Virus record (IMG/VR): IMGVR_UViG_3300011116_001048
Span: 54,565-118,564 of that record
Length of the DNA: 64,000 nucleotides
Origin: a virus
Reading direction: 5' to 3' (one strand)
The position numbers were made by a program, and so were the translations under genes. The stretch's first letter is position 1. Each line of letters opens with the position of its first letter. The notes beneath the pieces are model-generated. The model did not search any database. It had not been told where the DNA came from and worked only from the letters and a program-made list of their open reading frames with translations. Shown piece after piece: positions 8,127 to 56,831 of the stretch.

Positions 8127-8763
8127 TGGCTGTATTGATATCTGTAAAAATATGATTAAATCTGGAGAATTAGTAGGATTAAATCCAGATGATTTTATTA
8201 TTGCTTGCCTGGATAAAAATGCACACAACGAATTGAAGCATTATAAAGGTGCGTTTTTATATCAAGAAACACCATTAACAAATTATCAAAATTGGTCTTT
8301 TGATCCGTCTAGTAATTTTAGACAAATTGTTAAAAATAAATGGAAATTAATTAAAGAAATATACCAAACACATAAATCTCTTTGTTGGATCGATACGGAT
8401 ATTGTGTTTAAATCAAATCCATTACCCATAATCGACAACCACACTCATATACTGTTTCAATGCGATACTCCCGGTTCTTTTATTTGTTCTGGATTTATGG
8501 TATTTAATAATACAAAAGAATGTGAACAACTAATATCTGAATGTGGAGAAAACACAGAAGAAGACGATCAAATTTTAATCAACAATAAAGTAAGAAAGTA
8601 CGCAAACAGCTGTGGCATATTAGATCAAGAAAAATTTCCAAATGGTTATGTGTATCATACACTAGGAAAGAAAGACAAAGCCGTGATAGTGCACAATAAT
8701 CATATGGTGGGGATTGATACAAAAATTAATAAATTTAAACAAGAAGGAATGTGGCATATATGA
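8101..8763 (+). CDS. DxD nucleotide-sugar glycosyltransferase-like protein (B)
   Basis: A 220-residue GT-A-type protein with LCWIDTDIVFKSNPLP near residues 97-112, the metal- and nucleotide-binding DxD region, followed by ICSGFMVFNNTKECEQL and a DDQI motif that resemble GT77-like capsule or fibre glycosyltransferases. The VYHTL and IVHNNHMVG segments near the end fit the same fold. No signal peptide or membrane segment is present, so it would act in the cytoplasm. The start overlaps the GT10 gene. The sugar specificity cannot be deduced. Confidence 0.7.
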   Translation: MKFLTQLNSGCIDICKNMIKSGELVGLNPDDFIIACLDKNAHNELKHYKGAFLYQETPLTNYQNWSFDPSSNFRQIVKNKWKLIKEIYQTHKSLCWIDTDIVFKSNPLPIIDNHTHILFQCDTPGSFICSGFMVFNNTKECEQLISECGENTEEDDQILINNKVRKYANSCGILDQEKFPNGYVYHTLGKKDKAVIVHNNHMVGIDTKINKFKQEGMWHI

Positions 8764-9608
8764 TCTATACAGAAGACCGATTTAGAATTAAACCCAGTTA
8801 TCCAACATATCCACCATATCATATTGGTGATTATCTTGAAGATTATTTTTATAATAAATTTTCAAAAGAATTACCACATGTAAATGCAGATTATATTGGT
8901 ATAAGTTGGACTACACTATACTGTGATAATAAAAAACAAGATCTCCAAGAATATTTAAATAATCTTCCTATAAATGGTAACTATTTTACAGTGAGTCAAC
9001 ACGATGATGCTCCCATGGAGCATTTACCAAAAAATACTTTGTGTTTTTCTGCTGGAGGAAATATACAAAAATCTGGTATAGTACCAATACCTTTAGTTTG
9101 TTCAGAATTACCAATAAAATCACAACAAGAAACACATAAACGAGAATTGCTTGCATGTTTTGTTGGTTCTTATACTCACCCTATCAGACAAAAATTAATG
9201 AAAATTTGTGAAAATATAAAAGATATTACATTTTATATGAGACAATCAACTGGTAAGCCTTTGATACAAGATGAATTTAAAATGTTTATAAACAGTGCAA
9301 TAAACAGTAAATTTTGTTTATGTCCTAGAGGATACGGTTTAAATAGTTTTAGATTATATGAATGTATGCAATTGGGTTGCATACCAGTTATTATAACAAA
9401 TAAATTTTATTTACCATGGGAAGATGAATTAAATTGGAATGATTTTTCTGTTCTGATAACAGAAAATGATTTACCCAATTTAGAAAATATTTTACGATCA
9501 TATTCCGATGAAAAAATAGAATATATGAGAAATAAAATAAAACAACTATGGCCTATTTATTTTTCTCTAAATGGTGTTTATAACAATATAATCAAGAGAA
9601 TCAAATAA
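8760..9608 (+). CDS. Exostosin-like (GT47-type) glycosyltransferase
   Basis: A 282-residue protein whose C-terminal half reads FCLCPRGYGLNSFRLYECMQ, then LGCIPVIITNKFYLPW and DFSVLI, the pattern of the exostosin/GT47 nucleotide-sugar domain. I choose ATG 8760, which overlaps the previous stop as ATGA with GAAGGA upstream, over the in-frame GTG at 8751. GT47 enzymes include glucuronyl-, galactosyl- and N-acetylglucosaminyl-type transferases, so the substrate is open. The gene is very AT-rich, like the rest of the cluster. Confidence 0.75.
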   Translation: MIYTEDRFRIKPSYPTYPPYHIGDYLEDYFYNKFSKELPHVNADYIGISWTTLYCDNKKQDLQEYLNNLPINGNYFTVSQHDDAPMEHLPKNTLCFSAGGNIQKSGIVPIPLVCSELPIKSQQETHKRELLACFVGSYTHPIRQKLMKICENIKDITFYMRQSTGKPLIQDEFKMFINSAINSKFCLCPRGYGLNSFRLYECMQLGCIPVIITNKFYLPWEDELNWNDFSVLITENDLPNLENILRSYSDEKIEYMRNKIKQLWPIYFSLNGVYNNIIKRIK

Positions 9609-45472: not shown

Positions 45473-46978
45473 TTATTGGCTCATACGTTTCTTTAATGTG
45501 TCTAGTGCCATCTTGTGGGCTTGACCATGTGTCATCTTAACACCTTGTTCTTGTGCTTGAGTCATCAATTTAATAACTTGGTGTTTCACAAAAGTTTCAG
45601 GATCACTGACTTTTTCTTGGGGTGTATCGGTTTCTGGTTCTAGATCTTCCACATCAGAAGAGTCTCCTACTCCGTATACTCCAGTAGGATTTTCACGACT
45701 GGCTATGTAATGAGCCATTCTTTTTTTGCCTTTTTTAGTTAAACCGTATGCAGAAGTTTCTATACTGACTTCTTCGTTAAACATTTTCATAAAGTGATTG
45801 TAGTATTGTTCTCGTAAACTCATTTCTGTTCCTTTTGTTTGTGTTTGTAACCAACTCATAAGTTGTGGATCATTACCGTAAGCGGCTTTAAACCCCTCAA
45901 CTCCACGTTCTTTTAGATCTTTTTCAGCCTGTAAAATTGTTTCTTGACTTAACTGACCAGTTTGGCGTTCTGTTTGTGTTTGTGCTTGTCTTAGCTTTTG
46001 ATATTGGGCGTTTGCTTGTGCTTGTTTGGCTTGTTGGCTGGTTCCCCATTCTTTGGTGGCTTTTTCTTGTTGGGCTGCACGACCTGCTTTACCGTAACCC
46101 AGTGTTTCTTTGGCCAGATCAATAGGTCCCATTTCTTCTGTTTCTTGTCTTGCTGTTATGGTTTTAGGGTCTGTTTTATCACCAACCCATTGAACACCAT
46201 CTGATCCTATACTCATTTTATTACCAAAATAACGGCCTAATTGCCAGCCGGTTTCAGCAGCAGTCGCCATAGCAGCAGGAACTCCTAACACTCTTCCTGC
46301 AATTCCTAATCCTCTACCTAAACCGCTTTTTCCCAAAGTCTGTATTGCTTTAGCAACGGGTTCTACCAGTTTGGTTTTAGCTAATTTAGATGTAGCATCA
46401 GTAACAACAGAGCCAACTTTTTGTCCTGCTTTATACCCTGTTAAATATCCACCAACAGATCCAACAATAGATCCAGCAACACCACCAAGAGCTTCCTGCC
46501 ATGAACCTTCTCCTGCTCCTATTGATCGTGCAAGAGCAGCACCAGCAGCCTCAGAAGGTTTAGCAGCAAGATTCATCAATCCTACACCACCAACAGCTCC
46601 AGGAATGCTTGGTTTGGCTCCGGTCAACCATCCACCACCAACTTGTCCTGCAGCCTCTATACCAGTTAGTGCCCAAGGATTAACCACACCCATGGCTTGT
46701 GCTGTTTTTTTAGCAGCCAATCCTGTTCCAACTTCTACTACTCCTTGAACTGCTGGAGCCAATTTTGATGGGAGATTAAGAGTGTCTTTTAGGTCAGGAG
46801 ATAAAGGTTCTGTTTTTGGTTTGGGGGCTAAAGCAGGATTAGTATTTCTTGTGTAATCTGGTTTTGGTTTAAACTTAGCGACAACATCTAAAACGGTGTC
46901 AACGACGCTTTCGTTTACTGATTTTTTAAAAATATTTCTGATGATATCAGTTTCGTCGTTTACAGGCAAGTTGTGCAT
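45473..46978 (-). CDS. Large Gly/Ala-rich hypothetical protein, possible virion protein
   Basis: A 501-residue protein. I choose the ATG at 46978 (MHNLPVNDETDIIRNIF), because AAAGGA lies upstream and a perfect late promoter is about 23 bases further. The centre is Gly/Ala-rich (LAAKPSEAAGAALARSIGAG, AGSIVGSVGGYLTGYKAGQK), like membrane-active or glycine-zipper segments. Then come Gln-rich helices and a C-terminal part with SAYGLTKKGKKRMAHYIASR. It could be an internal or ejected virion protein. No known domain is evident. Confidence 0.7.
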   Translation of the reverse strand: MHNLPVNDETDIIRNIFKKSVNESVVDTVLDVVAKFKPKPDYTRNTNPALAPKPKTEPLSPDLKDTLNLPSKLAPAVQGVVEVGTGLAAKKTAQAMGVVNPWALTGIEAAGQVGGGWLTGAKPSIPGAVGGVGLMNLAAKPSEAAGAALARSIGAGEGSWQEALGGVAGSIVGSVGGYLTGYKAGQKVGSVVTDATSKLAKTKLVEPVAKAIQTLGKSGLGRGLGIAGRVLGVPAAMATAAETGWQLGRYFGNKMSIGSDGVQWVGDKTDPKTITARQETEEMGPIDLAKETLGYGKAGRAAQQEKATKEWGTSQQAKQAQANAQYQKLRQAQTQTERQTGQLSQETILQAEKDLKERGVEGFKAAYGNDPQLMSWLQTQTKGTEMSLREQYYNHFMKMFNEEVSIETSAYGLTKKGKKRMAHYIASRENPTGVYGVGDSSDVEDLEPETDTPQEKVSDPETFVKHQVIKLMTQAQEQGVKMTHGQAHKMALDTLKKRMSQ

Positions 46979-47001
46979 GATTAGTCCTTTAACTCCAATA
47001 A

Positions 47002-47009
47002 TATTTATA
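47002..47009 (-). promoter_or_regulatory. Perfect late promoter TATAAATA (minus strand)
   Basis: The plus strand reads TATTTATA. On the minus strand TATAAATA lies 23 bases before the start at 46978, with room for the AAAGGA ribosome-binding site in a short leader. It also lies in the leader of the divergent serine protease. Confidence 0.65.
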
Positions 47010-47042
47010 TTTTTTCCATTTCCTCGTATACATAATATTGAC

Positions 47043-47810
47043 ATGACACGGGCCACTGCAATCTTTACCGCAGTGATTCTAGCCTTCTTAACCGGATGCC
47101 AGAAGGATGCCAGTGTCTCCGGATCTCCCATCCCCACCGCCACCATCGATATTCCAAAGAGTATACGTAAACCAGACCCGTTCCCGGGGTTTCAAATTGT
47201 AGACCACAATACTCAAGATAAGTATGGTTGCGTGGGGCACGTACATAACGAACGGGGTGAATTTATTGGAAGTGGTGTGCTGATTGCCCCTTCGGTAGTT
47301 CTTACCGCTGGTCATGTGATTGACGGCGATGAATTAAAATTCTTTATTACTGGTGATAAAGCGTATATTATTGAAAAAACTATTCTTCATCCGCAGTATA
47401 AAAACGAAGAAGACGTTGTACACGATCTTGGATTATTGATATTAACGGAAGGATGTGATGAAACGCCAGCACAAATAATCCAAAACAGTTCAGAGCTGAC
47501 CCAAAGAGAACCTATCACAACAGTAGGTTATTCTCACCAAATAAAAAAAATCAGTAAACCAGGGACATTCTGGTATTACGGAACAGTTGAAGAAGAACCA
47601 CAATACATGAAGTTTCTTCCTATAAAAGGGCATATCTGGTTTGGTGATTCTGGTGGTGCCGTATTTGAAGATCATGGCCATCTAGCAGGAATTATATCTT
47701 CCATGACCGTTATAGACGAAACACTAATAGAACAATCAGCAACACGTTTAGACAGATATATTACTTGGATACAGGATACCATAGAACATGAAGGATGTTC
47801 ACTTAAATAA
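47043..47810 (+). CDS. Secreted lipoprotein trypsin-like serine protease (S1 family)
   Basis: A 255-residue protein starting MTRATAIFTAVILAFLTGC, a signal peptide ending in a lipobox with Cys 19. The protease domain has the S1 catalytic triad: His 91 in VVLTAGHVID, Asp 128 in VVHDLGLLIL and Ser 203 in WFGDSGGAVF. The lipid anchor would place it in the cell envelope, exported after infection. It stands between a divergent late gene and a RuvC-like gene. No Shine-Dalgarno sequence precedes the ATG. Envelope processing, superinfection exclusion or lysis are possible roles; none is shown. Confidence 0.88.
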   Translation: MTRATAIFTAVILAFLTGCQKDASVSGSPIPTATIDIPKSIRKPDPFPGFQIVDHNTQDKYGCVGHVHNERGEFIGSGVLIAPSVVLTAGHVIDGDELKFFITGDKAYIIEKTILHPQYKNEEDVVHDLGLLILTEGCDETPAQIIQNSSELTQREPITTVGYSHQIKKISKPGTFWYYGTVEEEPQYMKFLPIKGHIWFGDSGGAVFEDHGHLAGIISSMTVIDETLIEQSATRLDRYITWIQDTIEHEGCSLK

Positions 47811-48774: not shown

Positions 48775-48782
48775 TATTTATA
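48775..48782 (-). promoter_or_regulatory. Perfect late promoter TATAAATA (minus strand)
   Basis: The plus strand reads TATTTATA. The element overlaps the stop codon of the upstream minus-strand gene (48778-48780) and lies 20 bases before the start at 48754, with AAAGGAA between. Confidence 0.65.
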
Positions 48783-49401
48783 CGTTTCGTCTTCTTGGGG
48801 TTATAAATCCAGCAAGACCCAGTAAAAACACAGGTCCAGCGCAAGGAATGACTACGCCCGGTCCAAACCCACACCAATCTATGAAATTTCCTTGGGTGTT
48901 TCCACCAACAGCACTAACAGCTTCAAATGAAAACCGGGTGGTGTTTCCAATTGAAATTATAGTTCCGTAATGCACTTGCCATGCCGCATTACTAGCGGCA
49001 AAATCTTGCGAAAATATGGTAGTATCATCACCACCACCCCATGTTTGGTCTGCTCCAAGATCGGTAATGGACAATTTCATTACGTCGGTTCCGTAACGAC
49101 CACGGTGAGCAAAATGCCAGTTTATGGATTGGTAGTCTCCTAGTCCATTCACGTCTTGGTATAGTGTAGATGCGTAGTTAGCGTTTAGTTCTGCATGACG
49201 AGTGCCTTCATACGACGGAGTAGGCATGTACTCTCCCCAGATTTCAATAAGATTATCTGGGGCTGTAGTTTTCCATGGGGTATCTACTCCTCCTTGAACA
49301 AATCCGTAACCGTAATACACGTCATTACCTTCAAAACCACCATCAATTAAATCTCCAGACGCTGAAGTGGCGAGCAGTAGTGATGCTAGTAATTTTTTCA
49401 T
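48778..49401 (-). CDS. Secreted protein with PEP-CTERM-like C-terminus
   Basis: A 207-residue protein starting MKKLLASLLLATSASG, a signal peptide. The body (NLIEIWGEYMPTPSYEGTRH, then AELNANYASTLYQDV) resembles DUF642-like or choice-of-anchor exported domains. The C-terminus has the tripartite sorting pattern: IPCAG, a hydrophobic span (PVFLLGLAGF) and a basic end (TPRRRNV). Exosortase-dependent hosts use this to process surface proteins. Start ATG 49401 overlaps the previous stop (TGATG) with GGAG upstream. It is very unusual in a phage and may be host-derived, perhaps to alter the cell surface. Confidence 0.8.
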   Translation of the reverse strand: MKKLLASLLLATSASGDLIDGGFEGNDVYYGYGFVQGGVDTPWKTTAPDNLIEIWGEYMPTPSYEGTRHAELNANYASTLYQDVNGLGDYQSINWHFAHRGRYGTDVMKLSITDLGADQTWGGGDDTTIFSQDFAASNAAWQVHYGTIISIGNTTRFSFEAVSAVGGNTQGNFIDWCGFGPGVVIPCAGPVFLLGLAGFITPRRRNV

Positions 49402-50201
49402 CAAACCATTCTCCTTCTTGGTGTATTAATTAAACTGAATGCAAATACAGATACTGAACCAGATGCCGGTACAGGTGAAATTTCCGTTCCTTGACCAAAT
49501 ACAAACGGACTGTCTTGAAAGTCTAAAAGAGGATATTGTACATTTGCCAGTAGTTCAGGTGTTACCATAAAAACTAAAGGAAAGTCGTAATCAGTAACAG
49601 ACGCAATAGTAATAGGAGGAACTACTGGTGGATCAACTATAAGTTTACCACCACTAACCGTATCTGTAACTATCTCTGTTTCACCCGGAACCCACGGTTT
49701 ATCCGAAACTTCTGCTTTAGTAATTTCTATTTTAGCTTGATTGATCTTGTCTAAATTTTCAAACTGTTGAAGCAATCCTGCAAAATCAACACCACCTTTT
49801 TGTGATTTACTGTTTCTGGCAGTTTTCTTTGGCTCTTTAGAAATTGGTGCTGAAGTTTCTTTTTTATCTGTTGGTGGTACAATTTCAGTTATTTTAGCTT
49901 GTACATTTTGTACTTGTTCTACTTTACTAAAAATTCGATCAAAAGCTTCTTGACCAAGAATGGTTACACCTATAGTTGTGGCTAGCTGGAAAGCAGACAG
50001 CGTTTTCTGTAGTTTGTTTATTTTAGTTTTGGCTTCTTTAAGTTCTTTGGCTACAGCTTGCTCTTTTTCTATACGAGCGTCTTCATGTGCTTGAGCACAC
50101 TCTTCCAAAGACTTTTTAACTTCTAAGCAAGATTCTTCTTTAAGTTTAATACAACTAGCACAATGTGGATGTTCACTCTGTACAGATTTTTTGTCTGCCA
50201 T
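49401..50201 (-). CDS. Membrane/coiled-coil protein with PEP-CTERM-like tail
   Basis: A 266-residue protein with no signal peptide. The N-terminus has four Cys in a CASCIKLKEESC arrangement, then a coiled coil (KELKEAKTKINKLQKTLSAF) and a moderately hydrophobic segment (FQLATTIGVTILG). The middle is Lys-rich and the end is beta-rich. The C-terminus SPVPASGSVSVFAFSLINTP followed by RRRMV repeats the PEP-CTERM-like layout of the next gene (VxP..G, hydrophobic, TPRRR-x-V). AAGGGA precedes the ATG. Whether the tail works without an export signal is unclear. Confidence 0.65.
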   Translation of the reverse strand: MADKKSVQSEHPHCASCIKLKEESCLEVKKSLEECAQAHEDARIEKEQAVAKELKEAKTKINKLQKTLSAFQLATTIGVTILGQEAFDRIFSKVEQVQNVQAKITEIVPPTDKKETSAPISKEPKKTARNSKSQKGGVDFAGLLQQFENLDKINQAKIEITKAEVSDKPWVPGETEIVTDTVSGGKLIVDPPVVPPITIASVTDYDFPLVFMVTPELLANVQYPLLDFQDSPFVFGQGTEISPVPASGSVSVFAFSLINTPRRRMV

Positions 50202-50232: not shown

Positions 50233-50526
50233 TTATTGCTTTGGTTCAGAATTCTCGTTGAGTAGTTTTTGTTTGGCTTCTTCTAGCTTTTCTTCACACT
50301 CTGGGCACGGCCTCATAAACTGTTTCCATCCCCAAGTGACTACAAGAAATACTAGTGGAAGATACCACAGAATCCACTGCCAACCGGTTTGAAACGAGAT
50401 ATTGTTTTCAATTTCGTGATTTATTTTCTTAAGAATAACACTCTCCGAAGTTGTGTCTGGCACAATTTGTGGTGCTGTAGAGCAAGCGGTTAAGAGTGTG
50501 GTAGTTAATAGTGTTAGATATTTCAT
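50233..50526 (-). CDS. Small lipoprotein with a transmembrane span
   Basis: A 97-residue protein: a signal peptide with lipobox (MKYLTLLTTTLLTAC, Cys at 15), a short polar stretch, a Trp-rich membrane span (WQWILWYLPLVFLVVTWGW) and a charged tail with CPECEEKLEE. Lipid at one end and a membrane span within one small protein recalls unimolecular spanins, but the periplasmic part is only about 30 residues. It follows the holin-like gene and carries a strong AAGGAG site. A lysis or envelope role is a guess. Confidence 0.65.
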   Translation of the reverse strand: MKYLTLLTTTLLTACSTAPQIVPDTTSESVILKKINHEIENNISFQTGWQWILWYLPLVFLVVTWGWKQFMRPCPECEEKLEEAKQKLLNENSEPKQ

Positions 50527-50536
50527 GGGTTACTCC

Positions 50537-50971
50537 TTATGACTTGTTCGATGCAGCAGCAGATCCAAAGTAGAAACCGATAATGCTGAGAAGAATCTGT
50601 CGATTCTCACTGGTAAACAGGTATCCGTTAACTTCAACAAAGAACTTCTTGGTTGTTTCTGGGAAAAGACCAAACAGACCTTCTGGAGTTTTGGCATCAA
50701 CTTCTACGAAAGTTGGTACGCCGAAGAACGGAAGAACGAACGGTGCTAGAAATGTGGCAAACAAGGTTGCAAGCACAATTAGTTGACGAACACCTTTGCC
50801 TACATCTAGTGGTACTCGTTGTGCTGCTGCGTTTTGGTTCTCCGTGGTCTGCTTGTTAGCAGCCATAAGACGTTCAAACATCTCTTTTTGGTCTTGGGCC
50901 TTCTGGGCCATGTAGCGGAAAAGGAATCCGGTTGCAGATCCACCAATCAATGAAATTAATTCTGTCGGCAT
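50537..50971 (-). CDS. Holin-like membrane protein
   Basis: A 144-residue protein with an N-terminal small-residue segment (LISLIGGSATGFLFRY), a central hydrophilic helix, a strong membrane span (LIVLATLFATFLAPFVLPFF) and a C-terminal span ending GFYFGSAAASNKS. The three-segment plan and the GFYFG end resemble 3TM-type phage holins. GAAAGGA precedes the start. A small lipoprotein gene follows 10 bases after. No endolysin is recognisable in the window, so a lysis function is plausible but unproven. Confidence 0.6.
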   Translation of the reverse strand: MPTELISLIGGSATGFLFRYMAQKAQDQKEMFERLMAANKQTTENQNAAAQRVPLDVGKGVRQLIVLATLFATFLAPFVLPFFGVPTFVEVDAKTPEGLFGLFPETTKKFFVEVNGYLFTSENRQILLSIIGFYFGSAAASNKS

Positions 50972-54449: not shown

Positions 54450-56831
54450 TTATTTTTTATTTTTCTTTTTCTTTAACTGTACTTCTAGATAAGGAATGCT
54501 TGCTCTACCAACGAAAGGAAAATTGGAACCAGGAGTGTCTTTTAGTAGCTTTTCGACTACTTCTGGGGTGCCTTCAAATCCAGCGCCATGATCCTCATTC
54601 ATGCTGCGGTTTTTAGATTTGGGTAATACTCGTAGATTGCTATCGCCGTTATTTTTTGGATTGCCGTCTTTATGGTCTACATCTTTACCGTCACCTTTGC
54701 GGACTTTGCCCTTTTTCTCCATTTTACGACGAGCTAATACACGTTTGCTGCGGTTAGCACGTTGTTCCGGTTTGCTGTGATAATTATCGTATTCTTTACG
54801 GTAATTTCTAGCTTCAGTTAACCCGAATTCATTTTCCATTATGATGAGAGCATCCAACATGTCAATATTTCCTGCTTTGATATTTTCTATCAAAGAATCG
54901 TTCAGTAAAATATATTGTTCCAGGAGTGCGTCTGCACCTTTTTCTAGAACATTTTGTTCATTGCCTTCGGGATCGTAATTTTTTTGAACCGGAATTTGAA
55001 TTTGTTCTTCTGAATTGGTATTTGCATTAAAAATGATTGTATTGCTTGCATCATTATCACCCGCATAAAAATCAGAATATTCTATTGGCATTTTAAATGT
55101 AGCATCTGAAATTCCTAGTTCAAATGCTTGTAAAAACGCTGCAGGAGTATTAATTTGATTTTTAATAGATTCAATGTCACCGATAACAGATAAAGTGTTT
55201 TCCATTAGTGGTGTCATTTTTTGGAACAAGGTTTGTAAAAATCCACCACTAGAATTTGGAGTTTGAATAAATTTTAAAATTAAATTTGTATCTTTAGATT
55301 TGGCCAATGTTAAAGCAAAATTTTGATCTAAAGGAATTGCTTTAGCGTTAGTTCCATCTTTCTTTGCAGTAAACATCATCTGGGCAGAACCGGTTTTACC
55401 ACCAAATTTAATATTGCCTGTGAGAGCTTCTAATAATATAGCAGCTTTTAGGTCGTAATTTTCATTAATATAATTTTCTACTAATTCACCGGCTCGATTT
55501 AACAACGTCTTTTGGGAGTTTTGTGTAGTTTCGGCTCTCCATTTTTCGCGTGCCAAAGCAATAGATCCCTCACGAGAATTTTGTAGTGCTAAAGGTATAG
55601 ATTGGCTTGAAAACGTTTGTCGTAATTGTTGAATAAAATCGTTTACAAACATATCAAAAGAACCAACAATCTGTTGTAACGGCATCATAGCATTTATTGC
55701 ATTAAAAATAATACCGGCTTCCCCTTTACTAATAGGGCGTATTTCTTCTCCAATTTTAATACAAACTCCTAAAGATTGTCCTTTTGTTTTACCGATAACT
55801 GTGGCAGCTGGTGCTGATTCTTTTACGCCCATCTGTGACCATACTTTAGTTGTTTTTACAACAGGATCGGATTTAGTAAAAGTCATAGTGGCAGCAGCAG
55901 GAAATGCAGAATAAATTTCTTTAGCAAATCTTTGCATTGCGTCACCAAACGTTCTGCTTGTATTAATAAATTGTTGATATTCGGTTGACGGTTGTTTTCC
56001 AGATAAAGAATTTAGTGCATCACCAACCCCTGCAACAAATTGAGGAACTGTGTGGTCCCATTCAGGGAAAGTTGAATCTGGATTAGTCATTTCCTTTCCG
56101 TCTTTTGGTGTTCTTAAATGTGGAGGAGTTGGTGTTTCCGTTTTTTCAGATTGTTTTGGTTGCATTTGTTTAGATTTATTTTGTTTTGTGGTTTCTTCTT
56201 TTTCGCGCTCAACACGACCACCAAGCAATCTGATTGATGTTTTGGTGTTCATAAAATTATCTAAACTAGAATAATATGTAAGATCGCGTTTAGTTACATT
56301 ACCTTTATCTTGTTTTTTGGTTTTTCCTTTTAACAGCGTGTGGTGATTTGGATTGTAATCGTGTTTGGTTATAATTTCAATTTTATTTAATTTTGTGTTT
56401 TTAACAATTACAACATTTGCCAGACCAGCTTGCTTTTCTTGTTTACGTGCTTCGCGTTTGCGATCTCTTTCACGATCTTTAGAATCTACTTCCGGGCGCA
56501 TTTTTTGTTTTTCGCGTTTTAACGCAGTTCGTTTAGATTCTGCTTCTGAAAGCAAAGAATTTAAAAATGCATCATTAATTTGTTGGATTTTATCACCAAA
56601 CATAGATTCGCGCATTTGTAGCCCTTTAGCTTTTGCCTGATACAAATCTCTGGCTAGTTCTGCTTTCAATCGTCCTTTTCGTATAGCGGTTTCTCTATCA
56701 AAATTGGCTATTTTTTTTCTGTTTTCAAATTTTTGTTTTTGATACGGAATATTAAGTTCCCACAACAGAATAGATTCTGTTAGAAAGTCAGCGTACTCGG
56801 ATTCATTGAACCAGGAAGGGGTATTAGACAT
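54450..56831 (-). CDS. Large putative encapsidated protein with C-terminal HNH-like domain
   Basis: A 793-residue protein. The N-terminus (MSNTPSWFNESEYADFLTES) has a T4-type capsid-targeting pattern with cleavage expected after LTE. A long charged helical region (to about 180), a Lys/Gln/Pro-rich linker and an alpha/beta body follow. Near the end NYHSKPEQRANRSKRVLARR, then GDGKDVDHKDGNPKNNGDSN and LRVLPKSKNRSM, match an HNH-type motif with the DVDHKDG His. CATAAATA lies 12 bases upstream. A packaged nuclease injected with DNA is the suggested model; processing is unproven. Confidence 0.75.
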   Translation of the reverse strand: MSNTPSWFNESEYADFLTESILLWELNIPYQKQKFENRKKIANFDRETAIRKGRLKAELARDLYQAKAKGLQMRESMFGDKIQQINDAFLNSLLSEAESKRTALKREKQKMRPEVDSKDRERDRKREARKQEKQAGLANVVIVKNTKLNKIEIITKHDYNPNHHTLLKGKTKKQDKGNVTKRDLTYYSSLDNFMNTKTSIRLLGGRVEREKEETTKQNKSKQMQPKQSEKTETPTPPHLRTPKDGKEMTNPDSTFPEWDHTVPQFVAGVGDALNSLSGKQPSTEYQQFINTSRTFGDAMQRFAKEIYSAFPAAATMTFTKSDPVVKTTKVWSQMGVKESAPAATVIGKTKGQSLGVCIKIGEEIRPISKGEAGIIFNAINAMMPLQQIVGSFDMFVNDFIQQLRQTFSSQSIPLALQNSREGSIALAREKWRAETTQNSQKTLLNRAGELVENYINENYDLKAAILLEALTGNIKFGGKTGSAQMMFTAKKDGTNAKAIPLDQNFALTLAKSKDTNLILKFIQTPNSSGGFLQTLFQKMTPLMENTLSVIGDIESIKNQINTPAAFLQAFELGISDATFKMPIEYSDFYAGDNDASNTIIFNANTNSEEQIQIPVQKNYDPEGNEQNVLEKGADALLEQYILLNDSLIENIKAGNIDMLDALIIMENEFGLTEARNYRKEYDNYHSKPEQRANRSKRVLARRKMEKKGKVRKGDGKDVDHKDGNPKNNGDSNLRVLPKSKNRSMNEDHGAGFEGTPEVVEKLLKDTPGSNFPFVGRASIPYLEVQLKKKKNKK

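Follow-up and report, generated by a model that had tools for sequence, protein, structure and literature searches.

The closest described counterpart of the locus presented here is the PEP-CTERM/exosortase system of Gram-negative bacteria (EpsH, XrtA; Haft et al., 2006, PMC1569441; models TIGR02595, PF07589 and PF09721), in which the same three C-terminal elements are found: a proline motif, a hydrophobic helix and an arginine cluster. PEP-CTERM proteins reportedly have a signal peptide nearly always (PMC1569441; PMC3237569), and few basic residues in the exported part is the composition reported for them (Haft et al., 2006, PMC1569441). The LPXTG/sortase pathway of Gram-positive bacteria follows an analogous logic, with a tail that is read by a host enzyme. 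Phages, for their part, encode surface or membrane proteins for superinfection exclusion, such as T5 Llp and T4 Imm and Sp. To our knowledge, no phage exclusion protein uses exosortase, and exosortase sorting has not been described outside the proteins of cellular genomes. No report of virus-encoded exosortase substrates was found in the open-access literature searched; subscription papers and preprints lay mostly outside this search, and the novelty of the finding is provisional.

This article describes two overlapping phage genes whose products, proteins A and B, both end in a PEP-CTERM-like tail. The most probable reading is that the phage places A, and perhaps B, in the envelope of its host by means of the host's own exosortase, although cleavage, location and purpose are all inferred.

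The phage and its gene pair

The window, meaning the whole stretch of DNA analysed, covers 64 kb within a 118,564-base viral record obtained from environmental DNA. The phage has a GC content of 38% and T4-type genes for DNA polymerase, clamp, clamp loader and a gp46-like protein; its major capsid protein shares 58% identity with those of cyanophages. It meets the criterion for a T4-like myovirus (T4-type replication and head genes). The features of the locus are as follows:

48778..49401, minus strand: protein A, 207 aa; signal peptide, predicted carbohydrate-binding-module-like beta-sandwich, PEP-CTERM-like tail
49354..49401, minus strand: predicted signal peptide of A, residues 1-16 (from sequence; AxA before a conserved (D/G)LVDGSFE in relatives)
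48781..48852, minus strand: PEP-CTERM-like tail of A, residues 184-207, VIPCAGPVFLLGLAGFITPRRRNV (proline, hydrophobic run and basic end kept in 28 distinct tails)
49401..50201, minus strand: protein B, 266 aa; long N-terminal helix, disordered proline-rich linker, PEP-CTERM-like tail, no signal peptide
49938..50012, minus strand: stretch of B around residues 64-88, LQKTLSAFQLATTIGVTILGQEAF, conserved and of low hydrophobicity (Kyte-Doolittle; possible signal anchor)
49404..49475, minus strand: PEP-CTERM-like tail of B, residues 243-266, PVPASGSVSVFAFSLINTPRRRMV (motif proline and one arginine invariant among 21 B proteins)
49410..49418, minus strand: AGAAGGAGA, the RRR codons of B and also the likely ribosome-binding site of A (from sequence)
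50233..50526, minus strand: adjacent gene for a predicted lipoprotein of 97 aa that has one additional hydrophobic stretch; kept ahead of B in several relatives
50537..50971, minus strand: nearby gene for a hydrophobic protein of 144 aa, assigned to phrog_38283 (function unknown); also kept upstream in several relatives

The initial annotation had claimed that two adjacent proteins with PEP-CTERM-like C-termini occupy 48778-50201, that both end with a proline motif, a hydrophobic segment and TPRRR-x-V, and that only the downstream one has a signal peptide and an exported-type domain; all three claims held. Both reading frames lie on the minus strand, with the TGA of the upstream gene, B, overlapping the ATG of A, and the two proteins end in ...SPVPASGSVSVFAFSLINTPRRRMV (B) and ...VIPCAGPVFLLGLAGFITPRRRNV (A), the PCAGP of A being a divergent version of its family's PxPG motif. 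The combination is unique in the record: among the 492 stop-ended frames of at least 60 aa in the entire 118,564 bases, a screen for hydrophobic and basic tails returned seven, and a proline motif, an uncharged hydrophobic run and RRR come together in A and B only. A Sec-type signal peptide, MKKLLASLLLATSASG/D, is present in A alone of the pair; it was recognised by inspection and conservation, without a dedicated predictor, the relatives of A having AxA just ahead of a conserved DLVDGSFE.

Three other proteins of the window drew attention. The 144-aa neighbour is holin-like by appearance only. A trypsin-like serine protease with a lipobox-like start (46896-47810, plus strand) faces the A/B operon and occupies the same place in two relatives (L002 and L010), and a 793-aa protein (54450-56831, minus strand) has, by eye, an HNH-like C-terminal stretch (KDVDHKDGNPKNNGDSNLRVLPKSKNRS).

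The AlphaFold model of A is a beta-sandwich (mean pLDDT 83.6) which, in Foldseek, resembles the carbohydrate-binding modules CBM4/16/22/61 (E ~1e-5, query TM ~0.5), with a sequence identity of 10-17%. A is thus predicted by the model to be a signal-peptide protein with a carbohydrate-binding-module-like fold; sugar binding is inferred. Lysine and arginine make up 3.7% of the exported part of A; the figure for B is 12.2%, and the low-basic criterion is met by A only. Relatives of A's domain occur in Gram-positive surface proteins. Matches in Listeria phages were set aside, their records being unverified and resembling domains of such surface proteins, and a weak MARTX profile match was taken as a shared domain, not as a toxin. 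A first genome scan with A gave no match. Within the planctomycete phylum, no homologue of the domain was found at E 1e-6 in 392 genomes, and the domain is therefore not traced to the host; two distant homologues come from a Planctomycetaceae MAG.

At its N-terminus protein B has charged residues and a long helix instead of a signal peptide. In its AlphaFold model one long helix spans residues 15-106, the remainder being mostly below pLDDT 60 (disorder). The segment at residues 64-88 has a Kyte-Doolittle 19-residue mean of 1.05, which falls short of the value usually required of a transmembrane helix; the highest mean among relatives is 1.55. Export of B is doubtful, this segment being only weakly hydrophobic, and the sorting inference is weaker for B because it has no signal peptide.

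Conservation of the tails in related viruses

At least 36 IMG/VR contigs carry A, and a smaller set was found with B; a scan for close relatives with B alone confirmed none, and the family was found only via alignment. The tripartite C-terminal region (proline motif, hydrophobic helix, basic cluster) is present in A, B and their families. Relatives are 56-79% identical to this phage's A; proline, hydrophobic run and basic residues occur in 28 of 28 distinct tails, and the tail is present in each of the sampled homologues of A whose C-terminus is complete. B proteins share 17-45% identity: the N-terminal helix and the tail can be recognised, the linker between them cannot. Five positions are invariant over 21 B sequences, including the motif proline and one tail arginine. 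The motif is kept in nearly all of the 22 distinct full-length B tails, the exception (L011) being truncated by a frame change, IIKRRR being readable in a different frame; the basic end is looser in two of the 22. With several frame changes in each of the two genes, one contig listed three times (L006, L031 and L068) was left out of the tail counts. Near this region, two contigs encode a small secreted protein that by eye is probably outer-membrane beta-barrel-like (L011:6886-7629, L006:2499-3300).

A short, tailless B of 104-127 aa is found in one sub-lineage (L028-L030, L036-L038, L040, L041, L044 and L045), in which A keeps its tail. Given this absence, the tail of B is dispensable there. 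At L010:5986-6789 the body of A has been lost and, at the DNA level, the linker of B is continued, in the same frame, by A's tail and then by the DNA downstream of A, a joining that looks as if the two tails might be interchangeable. When a profile of A tails was run on 3043 frames of the phage and its relatives, its only matches below E ~1, apart from A itself, were the B tails and three additional PEP-CTERM-like proteins of sister phages. The bodies of these three are unrelated to A or B:

L061:6653-7678, minus strand: further PEP-CTERM-like protein (GGAVPAPGALALLGLAGIVGRRRR), found with the A-tail profile
L063:9166-9852 and 8705-9292, minus strand: two further PEP-CTERM-like proteins, found with the A-tail profile

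Two rival explanations can be weighed here. According to the first, the likeness is a coincidence between unrelated hydrophobic tails. The lack of any curated model match for the window's proteins speaks for it; against it, the tails are conserved in at least 36 contigs and have no equal elsewhere in the record. Their conservation across the family already rules this explanation out. According to the second, the RRR end of B is a by-product of A's ribosome-binding site (AGAAGGAGA), and B would not be sorted at all. Its arginine codons in the window, AGA AGG AGA, do double as A's likely ribosome-binding site, overlapping its Shine-Dalgarno sequence. However, six relatives (L019, L020, L064, L017, L061 and L063) have basic codons that include CGN and a purine-rich ribosome-binding site after B's stop, so that the tail must be more than a translation signal. 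The proline motif and hydrophobic run are conserved too, and in most relatives no start codon follows A's own RRR at close spacing. This second explanation is most improbable, and is already largely ruled out for the family.

The curated models remain to be considered. Neither A nor B matched TIGR02595, PF07589 or other sorting-signal models at E up to 10. The best-scoring phage relatives reach 15.9, 15.7 and 14.7 bits against a TIGR02595 cut-off of 16 bits, and one B tail among the relatives reads VVPEPSTISVFLAQSFFNQRRRS, the textbook motif. Only four of eight cellular proteins with the same tail type pass TIGR02595, which thus judges this tail dialect poorly; half of the host-type proteins tested miss its cut-off, hence its silence on the phages. 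The initial annotation had proposed a PEP-CTERM profile search as a check, and had named as refutation the lack of any model match together with homologues only in phages without such tails. The search left the window's proteins without a match and the best relatives just below the cut-off, so that the first part is formally true; the second is false.

Tail dialect, exosortases and the host

The phage A-tail profile matched 31 of 199 evenly drawn Planctomycetota genomes, with matches concentrated in about ten genomes of more than 10 hits each, and 8 of 194 Cyanobacteria, where the matches numbered one or two per genome and were mostly weak. The cyanobacterial negative is informative because Cyanobacteria hold many TIGR02595 proteins (56 of 188 genomes, up to 42 each). 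This comparison took in Planctomycetota and Cyanobacteria, leaving out Proteobacteria and Verrucomicrobia. When the order of one strongly matching genome was surveyed, 95 of 101 genomes matched at a stricter threshold (up to 82 hits, best E 6e-10). The phylum of this order, which we take to be possibly Phycisphaerales, is known from its centre genome having been reached from a Planctomycetaceae contig. Host tails (e.g., NAVPAPGAIALLGLAGLVGKRRR) and phage tails (e.g., NAVPAPGAIALVGLAAFFMSRRRL) are almost identical. Exosortase (PF09721) is present in all 11 tested planctomycete genomes that match the A-tail profile, and none was found in this phage record or 15 relatives (16 records searched). 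A cyanobacterial host, suggested by the capsid relative, was rejected, as the tail dialect does not fit.

A second, independent link to the host comes from a sister phage, L063 (a record of 119,654 bases with its own gp46-like gene), in which a pseudopilin gene lies about 5 kb from A and B:

L063:11036-12130, minus strand: pseudopilin of the sister phage, 81% identity to planctomycete cluster

This identity (81%, full length) is to proteins of two genomes of the same Planctomycetota order, in one of which the homologue sits in a tandem cluster near a gene reading as GroEL. In Cyanobacteria the match is essentially limited to the N-terminal 60 residues, and no match was found in 50,697 phage records. 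The phage gene has 46% GC vs 66% in the planctomycete, is 70% identical to the latter's copy at the DNA level and is flanked by phage genes; it is thus an adapted acquisition and not contamination. A chimera at a contig end, or contamination, is ruled out by the phage-like GC and the phage genes on both flanks. The pseudopilin ties the phage family to this order; the host of this particular phage is inferred, the pseudopilin link being that of a sister phage. The earlier suggestion that the host may be an exosortase-bearing lineage is thus supported along two independent lines, the tail dialect of an order with exosortases and the pseudopilin. CRISPR spacers gave matches in 15 genomes; the 8 loci inspected were low-complexity or unstructured, and none lay in a CRISPR array.

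Dockerin proteins were seen in two phages. One (L063:9900-10994) is protease-like by eye; the other (L059:8426-9880, minus strand) is a subtilisin-like (mycosin-like) protease with a C-terminal dockerin, below curated cut-offs.

The dialect bears on a third rival, in which the tails do no more than anchor the proteins in the membrane at their C-termini, with a positive-inside cluster, serving for instance lysis or exclusion, without exosortase cleavage. Any C-terminal helix with an arginine cluster anchors a protein, the hydrophobic run of B is short, and a lipobox protein and a holin-like hydrophobic protein lie upstream. A plain anchor, however, does not need an invariant proline motif at a fixed distance from RRR, it would be by coincidence that the tails agree with the Pro-Gly dialect of a single bacterial order, and the other phage proteins that bear such tails have unrelated main bodies. 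Plain anchoring is unlikely. Several observations count against the exosortase reading itself: the window's proteins reach no PEP-CTERM cut-off, B has no signal peptide and only a weakly hydrophobic N-terminal segment, B is short and tailless in one sub-lineage, no CRISPR spacer connects phage and host, the dialect comparison is limited to two phyla, the pseudopilin belongs to a sister phage, and the GC contents do not match (roughly 58-68% for most of the planctomycete loci looked at vs 38% in the phage).

Proposed sorting and comparison with known systems

In the exosortase reading, A and B carry a host-type variant of the PEP-CTERM sorting signal (VPxPG ... RRRR) of a planctomycete host. 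During infection, A would be exported by Sec and its signal peptide removed; its C-terminal helix would be held in the inner membrane with RRR inside, until the host exosortase cut at the proline motif. The carbohydrate-binding-like domain would then reach the envelope or the exopolysaccharide, the route suggested for the host's own PEP-CTERM proteins. B, whose gene lies just upstream in translational coupling with A, would probably insert via its weakly hydrophobic helix, a topology that is itself inferred, and would offer a similar tail after its disordered linker as a membrane-proximal partner. The likely benefit would be an altered surface of the infected cell, e.g., superinfection exclusion or masking of receptors or EPS; a carbohydrate-binding-like domain displayed there could fit either, but both display and purpose are inferred.

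A is likely a substrate of the host exosortase; for B this is moderately likely, and for both cleavage is inferred. The initial annotation's proposal that the phage uses a host surface-sorting pathway is supported with this reservation, more weakly for B, localisation too being inferred. A fourth rival holds that the pair, B above all, is an exosortase decoy whose uncleaved or slowly released tails keep the host enzyme occupied and so block host surface sorting. The non-canonical N-terminus of B and its lack of the usual folded cargo favour it; against it, A has a well conserved folded cargo domain that a decoy does not need, and B loses its tail in one sub-lineage. The decoy is very unlikely. 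A bolder version of the exosortase reading, in which planctomycete viruses as a group exploit exosortase, A decorating the cell and B acting as a signal-peptide-free substrate, tether or decoy, is also unlikely; if true, the phage would both re-dress the cell and block the sorting of host surface proteins.

If the exosortase reading is true, the pair offers compact natural substrates for a poorly understood enzyme, and the tail dialect becomes a signal for host prediction. The locus is also a pointer to a large family of T4-like planctomycete phages that is uncultured; few phages are known for planctomycetes.

Compared with cellular PEP-CTERM proteins, A likewise carries a signal peptide, lacks other membrane segments and is poor in basic residues, and the inferred host lineage has exosortase. 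Unlike in that system, the proteins are encoded by phages without exosortase, their motif is mostly PxPG or PxPS instead of PEP and falls below curated cut-offs, B has no signal peptide, and two tailed proteins share one overlapping gene pair. CBM4/16/22/61 resemble A in the fold predicted for A and differ by their low identity to it. With phage exclusion proteins such as T5 Llp and T4 Imm/Sp, the pair shares a proposed, inferred purpose. Finally, A's domain is like Gram-positive surface domains, but unlike in the LPXTG/sortase pathway there is no LPXTG, the enzyme belongs to another family and the inferred host is Gram-negative; the pair would then be the Gram-negative counterpart of phages using sortase.
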